From contig JAFDHD010000001.1 in the NCBI GenBank assembly GCA_019308995.1, positions 1-64,000 of the forward strand: 64,000 nucleotides of DNA. The letters run 5' to 3'. Every line of letters begins with the position of its first letter. Within the stretch, counting starts at the first letter, position 1. Position numbers and translations under genes: made by a program. Under the pieces are notes generated by a model. It saw only the letters and a program-made list of their open reading frames with translations, was not told the origin of the DNA and ran no database searches. This stretch comes from Deltaproteobacteria bacterium (GTDB lineage: Bacteria; Desulfobacterota; Desulfarculia; Adiutricales; JAFDHD01). Shown here piece after piece: positions 28,860-35,964 of the stretch.

Positions 28860-29765
28860 ATGAAAAACAAAAACCCAGAAGAAATCCGAGAGGCGGTTCG
28901 AGAAAGATACGGGAAAATAGCCAGGGTCGGAGCCGCAGCTTCTGAAAAATGCCAAACGGCCTCCTGCTGCGATCCAGTAGAGATTTCCCCCAAACCAACC
29001 CAGGCCGCATCCTGCTGCGCTCCAACAGACGTTTCCACCGAAACAGGTCAAGCCGCATCCTGCTGCGCTCCATCGGACATTTCCATAGAAAAAATGTCCG
29101 AGATCATAGGATATTCAAAGGAAGATATTGATAGCGTTCCCGAGGGTGCGAACATGTCGCTCGGTTGCGGCAACCCCGTGGCCCTCGCCACCCTTAAACC
29201 GGGGGAGACTGTTGTTGACCTGGGCAGCGGCGGCGGACTCGACTGCTTTCTGGCTGGCAGGGAAGTGGGCGAAACAGGAAAGGTAATCGGTGTGGATATG
29301 ACGCCGGACATGGTCAGCTTAGCCAGGAGGAACGTGGAAAAAATGGGGACAAGTAATGTCGAGTTCCGATTGGGAGAGATTGAAAATCTACCTGTTGCCG
29401 ATAACAGTGCTGATATTATCATGTCCAATTGCGTGATTAACCTTTCCCCTAATAAATCGAGTGTATACCAAGATGCCTATCGAGTGCTCAAGCCTGGAGG
29501 CCGATTGGCCATTTCAGATGTTTTAGCTACCGCTCAGCTTCCAGATGAAATTCGGCAAAACCTGGCTCTGATATCCGCCTGTATTGGTGGAGCCGCCACA
29601 ATTGAGGATACAGAGGAAATGTTGAGGGAAATCGGATTTCAGGACATCAAGATCAAATCAAATGACAGTAGCCGTGAAATCCTGAGGCAGTGGGATCCGA
29701 ACAGGAGCGAAGACGCCGGGGACTATGTTGTTTCCGCATACATCGAGGCCGTAAAGCCGGGTTGA
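28860..29765 (+). CDS. arsM: Arsenite S-adenosylmethionine methyltransferase ArsM with expanded cysteine-pair N-terminus
   Basis: A 301-residue methyltransferase that transfers methyl groups from SAM to As(III). SAM-binding motif VVDLGSGGGLDC (~118-129); C103 (LGCGNP), C128, C191 (SNCVIN) and C241 (SACIGGA) lie where the arsenic-binding cysteines of the family are expected. Upstream are three 16-residue repeats, each with a Cys-Cys pair (36-37, 52-53, 68-69). ATG 28860 follows an AAGGAGG site at normal distance; a longer in-frame start at 28830 would lie inside the operator. The gene is followed by a strong terminator. Confidence 0.92.
   Translation: MKNKNPEEIREAVRERYGKIARVGAAASEKCQTASCCDPVEISPKPTQAASCCAPTDVSTETGQAASCCAPSDISIEKMSEIIGYSKEDIDSVPEGANMSLGCGNPVALATLKPGETVVDLGSGGGLDCFLAGREVGETGKVIGVDMTPDMVSLARRNVEKMGTSNVEFRLGEIENLPVADNSADIIMSNCVINLSPNKSSVYQDAYRVLKPGGRLAISDVLATAQLPDEIRQNLALISACIGGAATIEDTEEMLREIGFQDIKIKSNDSSREILRQWDPNRSEDAGDYVVSAYIEAVKPG
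28947..29090 (+). repeat. Three 48-bp tandem units inside arsM
   Basis: Three in-frame 48-bp units code for residues 30-45, 46-61 and 62-77. Units 2 and 3 are the most alike (QAASCCAP followed by a T/S-D-V/I-S acidic segment); unit 1 has diverged (QTASCCDP). Each carries one Cys-Cys pair. The DNA-level similarity (GCATCCTGCTGCGCTCCA in two units) points to recent internal duplication. Confidence 0.85.
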
Positions 29766-32921: not shown

Positions 32922-33323
32922 TTATTCAATAACCGAGGGAGGAAGAACCAAAGAAGCTTTTTCGGCGAGTTCAATCGCTTTCAATTTTTGTTCTGATTTT
33001 TCTTTCGGCCAATCAATGATATTCGCATGTCGTGGGTTGTCCGACATAGGTGTGGGTTGCACTCTAAGTTTCACAGCATAGACATTAGAAGCGTATACAT
33101 CTGCCCTTGCTTTCAGACTTTTTCCCCGTATCTCACCTATTTTTTCTCCTATCTTGAAAATCCTGTTTTCTTCTATGCCAGAAATTCGGCAGACTGAAGT
33201 TTCACGCCTGGGGTGTGGTAAAAAGGCTCTATATATAACCCGACCTTCTTTCGGATTGAACTTGCCCCTTTGTTCAAATATATAGCGTGTAAGCTTTTCT
33301 GTTGGTGATACGGTTTCGTTCAC
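32922..33323 (-). CDS. Unknown protein, third gene of TIGR04255 cassette (133 aa)
   Basis: A 133-residue soluble protein that I cannot assign to a named family. It has a segment SVCRISGIEENRIFKIGEK, then GKSLKARADVYASNVYAVKL and the motif NPRHANIIDWP followed by KEKSEQKLKAIELAEKASL. The RHANIxxWP block looks conserved and resembles sporadic uncharacterised bacterial proteins I recall. It overlaps the preceding gene by 4 bases (ATGA), so the two are translationally coupled. Base composition is clearly AT-richer than neighbours. Confidence 0.75.
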   Translation of the reverse strand: MNETVSPTEKLTRYIFEQRGKFNPKEGRVIYRAFLPHPRRETSVCRISGIEENRIFKIGEKIGEIRGKSLKARADVYASNVYAVKLRVQPTPMSDNPRHANIIDWPKEKSEQKLKAIELAEKASLVLPPSVIE

Positions 33324-33838
33324 TTTTTCGCTGGGAATCGGCTGCTGATTTTATTAAAGAGCTTACTGAGACCATCAGGAGTATACGGCACAACACCATG
33401 CTCTTTCTCTAAACCGAAGATACCTGCATAAGTTACTTCGTTACTTCCGTCAACACTTATAACAAATACCTGTTTATTCTTTTTATACCACTCAAAACCA
33501 ATGCCACCATCGGGTTCGGGGCTCAACTCAGGTAAGAGAGTGTATGACGAAATCCAATAGAGGAGCATTTCACGCGCCTGATAATAAGTGTTATCCGAAA
33601 TTGGTTCGGCATCATATCCATCCCAGTTTGGCTCAGAAGCTTCCTCTCGAATCTCTTGAAGAGCTTCAATCATTCGATCTAAGGGAAGCTTGGTGGTGGC
33701 AACTTGATTGATTTTATCTCTTGCCATGTCAAGATGCTTGTGAATCGCTTTTGAATGAGGTCCTACGCCCGTGTCCAAAATCATGGATGCCATCAATCCC
33801 CGATAAGATTCATCTCGTTCTAATAAACTTACTGGCAT
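33320..33838 (-). CDS. Unknown protein, second gene of TIGR04255 cassette (172 aa)
   Basis: A 172-residue soluble protein of no named family. The N-terminal half is helical (residues ~25-65). The central part has SEPNWDGYDAEPIS, then LSPEPDGGIGFEWYKKN, QVFVISVDGSNEVTYAGIFG. This NWDGY...PDGxIxxEW...YA pattern resembles a scattered family of uncharacterised proteins. It overlaps both neighbours (10 bases with the TIGR04255-like gene, 4 with the 133-residue gene). AT-rich. Confidence 0.75.
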   Translation of the reverse strand: MPVSLLERDESYRGLMASMILDTGVGPHSKAIHKHLDMARDKINQVATTKLPLDRMIEALQEIREEASEPNWDGYDAEPISDNTYYQAREMLLYWISSYTLLPELSPEPDGGIGFEWYKKNKQVFVISVDGSNEVTYAGIFGLEKEHGVVPYTPDGLSKLFNKISSRFPAKK

Positions 33839-34569
33839 AATTCGGCTACCCTTTCCGTTATGCTACTAAAGAAAATTTTATTTTTAAAAGCACGGAGATC
33901 CTCTAAAACGGCCCATATTTCATCATCGTTAATGTTAAAATTATTGTCTTGGGTAACTTCTATATCAAGTAACAGCGGTACTGTGCCAGGACTGTCTGGG
34001 GGCTCTGACATTTGAGTAATTATCCCCCGTGCCTTGATAGAAGAATCAAAAAACTGTATCCTTGTTAAAAAAGAATCAAGGCGCTGAGGTAAGTTTTCCG
34101 GAATTTCAGGTGGAGCAGTCAGGTAATCAGATAACTCGATCGTCGGTTCGGGGATTTCGATCCGGTTAACATATCTTAGCCCTAACCCGGTTACTACCTC
34201 TGGTGGAGCAATTTCCTTAAATATCTTCCATAATTTACGAGCCTCATCCCGCATTTGCTCCCAGGTTTCATAAGGCTCAATTTTATTGAAAGTAAAACCG
34301 TTCAACCTGGCTTGGATGATTTGTTTTTCATCCTCGGATAAATACCAATAGCCTTGAATCCCATGGTCCTTTGTTGACTGAGTGAAAGTTTTACTACCAA
34401 CCTGAAACGTTCCTTCCCATTGTTTGCGAATCTGTTTATGAGGATAGTCTCCTTTTATTTTATCGTGTATAGATTCTAGTCTGGAAATATAACCTGGATC
34501 CAGGGAATACCAGATATCAATGAGCGCTTCTTTTATTGGCGCGTTTGTTAGGTGTCTTGGCTCTATCAT
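33829..34569 (-). CDS. TIGR04255 family protein
   Basis: A 246-residue protein matching the TIGR04255 family (about 250 residues, sporadically distributed, function unknown). Typical marks are the opening LTNAPIKEALIDIWY, the FTFNKIEPYETWEQMRDEARKLW block (about residues 91-113), and GLGLRYVNRIEIP. It leads a three-gene unit with 10- and 4-base overlaps. Lower GC than the flanking genes suggests acquisition by transfer. Role unknown; a defence or stress function is only a guess from its scattered occurrence and setting. Confidence 0.8.
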   Translation of the reverse strand: MIEPRHLTNAPIKEALIDIWYSLDPGYISRLESIHDKIKGDYPHKQIRKQWEGTFQVGSKTFTQSTKDHGIQGYWYLSEDEKQIIQARLNGFTFNKIEPYETWEQMRDEARKLWKIFKEIAPPEVVTGLGLRYVNRIEIPEPTIELSDYLTAPPEIPENLPQRLDSFLTRIQFFDSSIKARGIITQMSEPPDSPGTVPLLLDIEVTQDNNFNINDDEIWAVLEDLRAFKNKIFFSSITERVAELCQ

Positions 34570-34602
34570 AGATTGAGACTATTATCTCTTTGTGGTAGTT
34601 GA

Positions 34603-34631
34603 ATTATACATTCATACTGACTCAAGATCAA
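34603..34631 (-). promoter_or_regulatory. Promoter of the TIGR04255 cassette
   Basis: On the minus strand TTGATC (34631-34626), 17-base spacer, TATAAT (34608-34603). Predicted RNA start is near 34596, 27 bases before the ATG at 34569. Confidence 0.5.
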
Positions 34632-34806
34632 ATTTTTTTCAAGGCCTCCCCTTCTCAATTTTCTCCCTCAACATTCTTCTCAGCCTACGACCCGACCTCA
34701 AGCGGAACCCGCTTCTTCATTGTTGTGGAGTTCCGGGGACATACTTAATTAATTTCTAAATTCTACACAATCTCACATAGTGAAAATCAAGGACCAGAAT
34801 TAATGA

Positions 34807-34880
34807 AACCCCCTCCCCAGCGGGTAGCCCACTTCGAACCGTCCGGGTTGCGAAGCAACAGGAGGGTAATCCCCGCTGGT
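34807..34880. repeat. Nested palindromic element
   Basis: Outer arms CCAGCGGG (34817-34824) and CCCGCTGG (34872-34879), flanked by CCCCCTCC-like and GGAGGGT-like sequence, enclose an inner hairpin CTTCGAACC-GTCCG-GGTT(G)CGAAG (34832-34855). It looks like a REP-type or mobile palindromic unit. Part of the 756-base gene-free stretch between the TIGR04255 cassette and tetR. Confidence 0.55.
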
Positions 34881-35051
34881 AGAAAAGGCTCTCCCGGCTG
34901 CTATTGAATATAAATGGAAAGTATTAAAAATATGGCCTTTTCTCTTTAAGTTTTCAATTTTTTTATATTGGGCCTTATGAGACTTGACGGAACGCCCTGG
35001 CTAACCCTCTTGTCGTTCGGTAGGAATGAAACCAGAGAAAAATCCCCCTAT

Positions 35052-35078
35052 ATCCCCCTTTAGAAAAGGGGGATTTTT
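35052..35078 (+). terminator. Strong hairpin with T-tract in intergenic repeat region
   Basis: ATCCCCCTTT (35052-35061), 3-base loop AGA, AAAGGGGGAT (35065-35074), then TTTT. Perfect 10-bp stem. It looks like an intrinsic terminator, but no plus-strand gene ends just before it; such CCCCC/GGGGG units are often dispersed repeats. Confidence 0.55.
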
Positions 35079-35138
35079 GCTCAATACCCTTCGCAAGGCC
35101 TTTAATACCAAGTTGCGATCAAACATTTACTAATGAAT

Positions 35139-35252
35139 CGTCATTGCGAGGAGCGTAGCGACGAGGCACCCATTAAGAGGCAATCTTAACCTTTTCAATC
35201 GGAACGTATTTTTACCATTCTCTCTAAAAGTTGACAAAAGGGCATGGCAAGT
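35139..35252 (+). repeat. Dispersed repeat, copy 2
   Basis: Begins CGTCATTGCGAGGAGCG (35139-35155) and continues TAGCGACGAGGC, then GCAATCTTAACC, AACGTATTTTTACCATTC (35203-35220) and GGCATGGCAAG. The CGTCATTGCGAGGAGCG...GACGAGGCAATCT type of element is common between genes in several phyla. It matches copy 1 at 1431-1568 in order and sequence. Confidence 0.6.
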
Positions 35253-35264
35253 TAAAAGAAAAAC

Positions 35265-35293
35265 TTGACAGAGGGTATTAACTGGGCTATTTT
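35265..35293 (+). promoter_or_regulatory. Promoter of tetR-icmF
   Basis: TTGACA (35265-35270), 17-base spacer, TATTTT (35288-35293). Predicted start near 35300, inside the operator and 26 bases before the tetR ATG. Confidence 0.6.
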
Positions 35294-35309
35294 CTGAACG
35301 AACGCTCAG
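35294..35309 (+). promoter_or_regulatory. TetR-type operator
   Basis: CTGAACGAACGCTCAG, symmetric at 12 of 16 positions (CTGAxCGxxCGxTCAG), directly after the -10 box. It resembles the GAACGxxCGTTC-type sites of TetR regulators of acyl-CoA metabolism. Autoregulation by the next gene is likely. Confidence 0.55.
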
Positions 35310-35325
35310 TCAGGAAGGCCTCATA

Positions 35326-35964
35326 ATGAAAAAACTAGAGCAAGTGAAAAATATACCGACCCTGGTCAAAGACGCCAGCCTGGTCGAAAAAAGACGAAGG
35401 CAGATCGTGGAAGCCGCCATGAAGCTGTTCGTGCAAAAAGGCTTTCACCCGACCACCACCCGTGAAATTGCACGCATGGCGGGTTTTTCCATCGGCACCC
35501 TTTATGAGTACATCGGTTCCAAGGAAGATGTCCTCTATCTGGTCTGCGAGGCCATCCACTCAGAGATGGAAACCAAACTGAGACAGGCCCTCGATGAAGG
35601 CAGCACCGGCCGGGAAACCCTGGTCAACGCCATCTCAAATTATTTTCAGGTCTGTGACCGGATGCAGGACTCGATTTTGCTTATCTACCAGGAATCAAGT
35701 TCGCTGGACCGGGACGCCCTCAGGTACGTGCTGGCCAGTGATGAGCGCGTTACCTCTACCTTTGCCAATATCCTGCTTCAGGGTCTTAAGGACGGGACCT
35801 TGCACCTGGAAAAGAATAACGTGAAACTTATAGCCCACAATATCATCGTCCTGGGCCACATGTGGACCTTTCGGCGCTGGTTTCTCAGGCGGGCGTTCGG
35901 GTTGGAGGAATATATCCGTATTCAGACCTCCTTCCTTTTGAGCGAGCTGACAGGCAAAGGCTAA
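35326..35964 (+). CDS. TetR-family regulator
   Basis: A 212-residue TetR/AcrR repressor. N-terminal DNA-binding domain RQIVEAAMKLFVQKGF...TTREIARMAGFSIGTLYEYIGSKEDVLY (HTH about 45-64); the larger C-terminal ligand domain is unspecific by eye. It sits 60 bases ahead of icmF on the same strand with a promoter and palindromic operator upstream, so it probably controls itself and icmF in response to an acyl-CoA. GGAAGG lies 8 bases before the ATG. Confidence 0.88.
   Translation: MKKLEQVKNIPTLVKDASLVEKRRRQIVEAAMKLFVQKGFHPTTTREIARMAGFSIGTLYEYIGSKEDVLYLVCEAIHSEMETKLRQALDEGSTGRETLVNAISNYFQVCDRMQDSILLIYQESSSLDRDALRYVLASDERVTSTFANILLQGLKDGTLHLEKNNVKLIAHNIIVLGHMWTFRRWFLRRAFGLEEYIRIQTSFLLSELTGKG

Follow-up and report, generated by a model that had tools for sequence, protein, structure and literature searches.

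Tripartite toxin-antitoxin modules with a helper protein are a known kind of system. In TAC, SecB-like chaperones serve antitoxins that bear a C-terminal chaperone-addiction extension (ChAD) (PMC5105189), and in CmdTAC a capsid protein draws the chaperone away, which frees the ADP-ribosyltransferase CmdT for use against phage (PMC11618068). We analyzed a three-gene cassette, P1-P2-P3, within a 64,000-nucleotide stretch of DNA from a Deltaproteobacteria bacterium (contig JAFDHD010000001.1, hereafter the window), and consider it probable that the cassette is a tripartite toxin-antitoxin-like module with P3 as an ADP-ribosyltransferase (ART)-like toxin, P2 as the antitoxin and P1, a TIGR04255 protein, as the helper. 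As in TAC, three adjacent genes would encode a toxin, an antitoxin with an added docking region and a dedicated helper, assignments that we draw here from sequence, and one kind of helper is found with several toxin-antitoxin families (PIN, MazF, zeta, HicA-like, HEPN-like and others). The likeness to CmdTAC lies in the toxin, with CmdT being an ADP-ribosyltransferase and P3 being predicted to be ART-like. The cassette differs from TAC in that its helper is a TIGR04255 protein that is not SecB-like by sequence, in that the putative docking region lies at the N-terminus of the antitoxin as opposed to the C-terminal ChAD, and in its gene order of helper-antitoxin-toxin. By analogy, the best reading is that the cassette would work like TAC but without SecB, and that it is not a TAC by membership.

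The three genes are intact on the minus strand (34569 to 32922) and overlap by 10 and 4 bases, in agreement with the coordinates and open reading frames of an earlier sequence-only reading of this DNA. That reading also described the cassette as AT-richer than its surroundings, and indeed its GC content is 41.3% compared with 53.5% for the window, the GC3 of its genes is 34–38% compared with a window median of 67%, and it is the most AT-rich stretch of its size (1 of ∼310 windows, the cassette itself). The proposed promoter TTGATC-N17-TATAAT exists, and the exact string has a single match in the window (0 expected from 100 shuffles), but consensus-type sites number 9 in the 3 kb region versus 5.4 ± 1.9 in shuffled sequence, so that the site is weak evidence for a consensus-type promoter. 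As had also been stated, a metal-resistance cluster (ArsR/methyltransferase/ArsP/TauE/thioredoxin) adjoins the cassette, and the remaining neighbors are a TetR gene and then a large mutase. The repeat-rich spacer of the same reading was not borne out, with positions 34560-35330 containing one 12-nt inverted repeat and zero direct repeats. We also observed, inside a gene for an ArsM-like methyltransferase, a 48-bp tandem repeat (28962-29085) that encodes recurring ASCCxP motifs close to the N-terminus of the protein, and a REP-like CATTGCGAGGAGCGTAGCGACG stretch at 35142-35163 that is single-copy in the source genome.

Table 1. Window coordinates of the cassette genes, candidate sites and promoter-like element.
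Feature	Coordinates	Strand	Description
P1	33829..34569	-	246 aa, TIGR04255 family; proposed docking chaperone or sensor
P2	33320..33838	-	172 aa, middle protein; proposed antitoxin with WDGY...PDGGIGFEW domain
P2 residues 1-60	33659..33838	-	proposed TIGR04255-docking region, based on N-region length and N-half/C-half swaps
P3	32922..33323	-	133 aa, GTG start; proposed ADP-ribosyltransferase-like toxin/effector
P3 Arg13 codon	33285..33287	-	candidate catalytic/NAD-binding residue; R in 98% of 65 sequences
P3 Ser43 codon	33195..33197	-	candidate catalytic residue; S in 100% of 65 sequences
P3 His99 codon (HANIxxWP motif)	33027..33029	-	candidate catalytic residue; H in 100% of 65 sequences
Promoter-like TTGATC-N17-TATAAT	34603..34631	-	ends 34 bases before P1 start; consensus match only

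We searched 84,980 species genomes with a P3-only signature, which yielded 76 loci, 74 of them with a clear P3 open reading frame, from Nitrospirota, Planctomycetota, Desulfobacterota, Pseudomonadota, Acidobacteriota, Gemmatimonadota and other phyla. P2 lies directly before P3 in 72 of these 74 loci (the remaining two are near contig ends), TIGR04255 precedes the P2-P3 pair in 60, and the modal junction at both P1-P2 and P2-P3 is a 4-base overlap of the ATGA/GTGA type. One locus (L114) carries a natural P1-P2 fusion encoding a single 414-aa protein. This co-occurrence strongly supports the earlier description of a tightly coupled system. Of the 14 loci that have no TIGR04255 gene, four sit on or close to contig edges, a different ∼215-aa gene occupies its position in seven (L083, L089, L090, L103, L137, L139 and L147) and one has no candidate first gene; the other two (L072 and L075) consist of P2-P3 alone, and thus P1 is not always needed. 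With hhalign, no similarity to TIGR04255 was seen for the ∼215-aa genes (those of L083 and L137, among others) or for the gene that comes first in L071; we therefore dropped homology and regard them as positional replacements only. In the 297 genomes of the window's phylum that were searched for P3, eight were positive, five with full cassettes and three with degenerate or P1-less copies.

P1 belongs to TIGR04255, as the sequence-only reading had it, with a match of 3e-35 and 122.3 bits (curated cut-off 30) that runs from residue 7 to 241 and covers the near-full model (2-247 of 252). A Pfam search at E-values up to 1 returned no family for P1, which consequently has no SecB sequence match. 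The AF2 model (pLDDT 94.6) is a duplicated beta-alpha saddle for which the best Foldseek match is TBP (prob 0.97, E 1.5e-3) at low TM-scores of 0.25–0.38, while VIA-align gives guanido kinases and TBP at Z 7–9; judging from the predicted model, these likenesses would reflect a common arrangement only. With no sequence match, and with fold lists that give TBP and guanido kinases at this level, a SecB-like or other known chaperone fold for P1 found no support, although these lists are still compatible with a SecB-like fold. The conserved residues of P1 include P11-I12-E14, P99-Y100, R132, N135, D202, K229 and F233, among others. P1 was not found in the phage collection, and we found no mention of TIGR04255 or DUF7689 in the literature searched.

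P2 and P3 match no family in Pfam, NCBIfam or PHROGs, which agrees with their earlier description as unassigned. What P2 does is suggested by natural swaps among related loci. Identity between L034 and L036 is 85% for the TIGR04255 proteins and 56% over the first 72 residues of the middle proteins, whereas the C-halves of the middle proteins are unrelated (alignment score 16), as are the third genes, a QGD protein versus MazF. Conversely, the TIGR04255 proteins of L036 and L197 are just 31% identical and the N-parts of their middle proteins differ, whereas the middle proteins can be aligned at their C-ends and identity between the MazF proteins is 61%. Judged from these three loci, the N-half of a middle protein is thus linked to its TIGR04255 protein, and the C-half is linked to the toxin. 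Within the P2 family, the number of residues before WDG has a median of 68 in the presence of TIGR04255 (n = 54). It is 92–131 where another gene comes first (n = 7), and 35 and 46 in the small group that lacks a first gene (n = 2). Because the N-half follows TIGR04255, our best guess is that P1 is a docking helper, and by analogy with CmdTAC it is possibly also the sensor.

We infer that P2 is the antitoxin from its position, from the swap data and from the fact that it is paired with a single toxin family. The predicted C-terminal domain resembles small binding domains, among them Med17 (Z 6.7) and TriTu (Z 6.1 over 79 of 87 residues), the immunity protein of the ART toxin TreTu, although this resemblance is not decisive. 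Pfam gave no antitoxin support for the middle proteins except for HTH domains in one subtype, and versions with an HTH may thus regulate their own operon. HTH-bearing middle proteins were seen in L160 and L161 (Vibrio plasmids), L163, L195, L198 and L205. A hydrophobic or signal-like segment was rejected as a general docking signal, with 8 of 45 middle proteins above threshold versus 5 of 45 third proteins. Both the two-part middle protein and the shared TIGR04255 hub appear to be undescribed so far.

In the window's phylum 32 of 395 genomes carry TIGR04255, and in Pseudomonadota (the phylum of L082) 30 of 398 do. This amounts to ∼1 of every 13 genomes across the two phyla sampled and is consistent with the sporadic distribution given in the sequence-only reading. 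The third gene of its operons encodes a PIN, MazF/PemK, zeta, HicA-like, HEPN-like or DUF7689 protein, a member of an unnamed QGD/CD family, or P3. When third-gene types were assigned by cluster of the third or middle gene, 37 TIGR04255 loci from the window's phylum included 11 of the P3 type, 7 QGD/CD, 5 PIN, 4 HEPN-like, 4 DUF7689, 3 HicA-like and 2 MazF/PemK. Pfam identified PIN (1e-11), PemK/MazF (2e-13) and DUF7689 (1e-40) among the third genes, with HicA (3e-4) and HEPN (0.004) below cut-off, and a Vibrio plasmid has a zeta toxin at the third position (3e-12). The source genome itself contains a second TIGR04255 operon (contig C49, L064:7857-8696 and downstream) with a third gene of the QGD/CD type. 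Known toxins can take the place of the third gene, which indicates the kind of system to which the cassette belongs, a point absent from the sequence-only reading. Pairing of the same TIGR04255 helper with at least seven different toxin-like proteins suggests a modular growth-arrest system, possibly directed against phage.

Two of these families deserve a separate description. The QGD/CD proteins (third genes of L034, L051, L056, L060, L064, L067, L195, L198, L205 and L257) share QGD and (T/S)(Q/N)xC(D/N) motifs, have no Pfam match and are probably a further effector class. DUF7689 is the third gene in L035, L038, L050 and L162 and has conserved Cys/His motifs (NCIAWA, THAARQL and DIEH); its presence at the toxin position suggests what its function may be.

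We also placed effector types on a tree of 71 TIGR04255 proteins, with labels partly assigned by reading the sequences. The effector label changes 14 times on this tree, compared with a minimum possible of 7 and with 36 for shuffled labels, a pattern that points to effectors being inherited for some time and repeatedly exchanged. A DUF7689 clade (99% support) is nested within the window's own P3-type clade, and QGD, MazF and HEPN types occur together in one further clade, also supported at 99%.

P3 has no sequence link to any solved structure. Profile comparison of P3 with KptA gave a probability of 0.2%, using KptA open reading frames pulled from PF01885 loci with an E. coli KptA seed sequence, and a sequence relationship between the two was rejected on this negative result. 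Structure was predicted for a homolog (L118:2740-3633) whose P2 and P3 share a reading frame, with the one intervening stop read as glycine (AlphaFold model m58ce274a1ff5, 36 rows). The P3 part of this model has pLDDT values mostly >90, while the arrangement of P2 relative to P3 is not confident (pTM 0.57). Foldseek returned no significant match of this model to the PDB. In VIA-align, the first five rows over the P3 region (172-298 of the tandem) are all Tpt1/KptA, with Z 7.4–8.2 and rmsd 2.7–3.4 Å over 91–95 residues of the NAD+ lobe only; the sixth is the mono-ADP-ribosyltransferase domain of SdeA (Z 4.8), and zero rows are non-ART. A Z of ∼8 is near background for unmatched models, and it is because all rows over the P3 region agree that we favor an ART reading.

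ART active sites are built from three motifs, of the R-S-E or H-Y-E type, in which the third residue is usually Glu. In the predicted P3 fold Arg lies on the first strand, Ser on the next and His on a later one, which matches the placement of the ART motifs; the first two residues are thus R and S, and the third is an invariant His in place of Glu. All four aligned subtypes keep the R, S and H, as does the PDC-M32B relative, and N101, W105 and P106 are likewise present in 100% of the 65 sequences. On the strength of this single predicted model of a homolog, P3 is probably ART-like. The P3 family was not found in IMG/VR (by signature pattern) or in PLSDB. Two phage proteins, A0A345BPV0 (114 aa) and A0A5S9HX71 (Tenacibaculum phage PTm1, 122 aa), match the P2-P3 model with a probability of 1.00 and are possibly phage-borne relatives or decoys.

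Three further systems bear comparison with the cassette. The NAD+ lobe of the Tpt1/KptA tRNA 2'-phosphotransferase is the best structural match of P3 (PMC6333775), but P3 lacks the winged-helix RNA lobe, the HGT motif and PF01885 sequence similarity and is not a member of that family. TreTu (PDB 7zhm; PMC10469887) is an ART toxin whose immunity protein, TriTu, is small and among the better fold matches of P2; however, TreTu is a secreted interbacterial Rhs effector, and the P2-TriTu match is within background level. PDC-M32 is a PADLOC candidate system only, with a single mention in the literature searched, as a PADLOC hit. The match of P2 to PDC-M32A is weak (6e-5) and lies in the C-terminal part of the model, of which it covers 75 of 375 positions; 7 of 8 P2 relatives match a PDC-M32A model, and P3 weakly matches PDC-M32B (0.0016), as do 2 of 7 relatives. 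L071 offers a parallel in gene order, since ahead of its A and B genes lies a 235-aa gene that has no model, just as TIGR04255 lies ahead of P2 and P3 here. The similarity is nevertheless distant, PDC-M32A is a 375-aa protein, and the first gene of L071 shows no similarity to TIGR04255.

A defense role had been put forward in the sequence-only reading, as had transfer of the cassette. Restriction-modification (R-M) genes occur at 3.9 per 100 kb within 3 kb of the 74 P3 loci versus 1.0 at 6–10.5 kb, ∼4-fold more; an R-M gene lies within 3 kb in 10 loci, two of which are near-copies. In L111, L094, L131, L046, L107, L077 and L085 the cassette sits within or adjacent to a type I R-M operon, and from the sequences we read a PIN-type operon embedded in a BREX-like locus (L033) and one of the QGD type next to a helicase/methylase cluster (L034). 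Near genes matched 254 PADLOC models, and far genes matched 56. Against this, most P3 loci lie among housekeeping genes, and no R-M gene adjoins the cassette in the window. With the PDC-M32 likeness added, this genomic context is suggestive of defense, and defense by abortive arrest is plausible. Acquisition of the cassette is supported in that its composition, its patchy distribution and the absence of TIGR04255 from the one same-genus genome, G827 (90% complete), all fit transfer. Synteny with G827 and G829 starts at ∼35259-35284, just before the TetR gene, with the cassette on the non-conserved side; an empty-site test found no precise empty site, with G827 sharing sequence only from 35259 on in the TetR direction.

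Even if P3 is the toxin and P2 its antitoxin, P3 could have an unrelated small alpha/beta fold and act as a nuclease or some other enzyme, its likeness to Tpt1 being a common arrangement. The insignificant Foldseek E-values, Z scores close to background and missing sequence link to KptA or any solved structure speak for this reading, and the other third genes are mostly ribonuclease families. We nonetheless think it rather unlikely, as all six P3-region rows are ART domains (five Tpt1 and one SdeA) and the invariant R, S and H sit on the strands that bear the ART motifs. The helper assignment may be questioned in a similar way. TIGR04255 could be an additional antitoxin or a transcriptional autoregulator, as in three-gene toxin-antitoxin systems with a separate repressor, given that it is the first gene of the operon and that TBP, a nucleic-acid-binding fold, is the best Foldseek match to its duplicated saddle. 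This we judge to be unlikely: the TM-scores of that match are low and its VIA-align scores are also reached by guanido kinases, the middle protein of one subtype already has an HTH, and protein binding is indicated by the coupling of TIGR04255 to the middle protein's N-half.

A greater departure would be a regulatory or sensory complex tied to restriction-modification that is not a toxin-antitoxin system, in which TIGR04255 senses and P2/P3 modify or regulate a partner with the host unharmed. P2-P3 pairs without P1 do occur, and cassettes lie in or beside hsd operons at no fewer than seven loci, yet such a complex seems improbable to us when an R-M gene was seen within 3 kb at just 10 of the 74 loci and the same first gene is paired elsewhere with bona fide toxin families.

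The toxin-antitoxin-like mechanism that we favor builds on the co-occurrence, coupling and swapping of the genes, the two-part middle protein and the invariant R-S-H, as read from sequences, and on folds taken from predicted models; its toxicity, neutralization, chaperone or sensor role and trigger are stated conditionally as follows. P3 would be the toxin, most likely an NAD+-using enzyme of the ADP-ribosyltransferase fold with an Arg-Ser-His active site. The C-terminal WDGY domain of P2 would neutralize P3 while its N-terminal region docks on TIGR04255, and P1 would be the dedicated helper that keeps P2 folded or bound. A trigger, such as a phage protein or other stress, may then draw P1 away, so that P3 is freed and growth is arrested. 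TIGR04255 and the N-region of P2 would constitute a reusable control unit for which elsewhere the C-half and toxin have been swapped (PIN, MazF, zeta, HicA-like, HEPN-like and others). More tentatively, and at somewhat less than even confidence, TIGR04255 could be the hub of a large undescribed anti-phage class that consists of a non-SecB chaperone or sensor, a two-part antitoxin and an exchangeable toxin half, here with an R-S-H ART-like toxin family that includes PDC-M32B.

What appears to be new in this cassette is the TIGR04255 hub, the N-terminal docking half and the P3 toxin family. TIGR04255, a family of no known function, would gain a concrete function, that of a common control element in toxin-antitoxin modules whose toxins differ, and the natural swaps among L034, L036 and L197 mark points at which experimenters can cut and graft. 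If our reading is true, chaperone- or sensor-addiction of antitoxins would have evolved outside SecB, PDC-M32 would be placed in a mechanistic frame, and TIGR04255 would serve as a positional tag for new toxins, including the QGD/CD, DUF7689 and P3 families.
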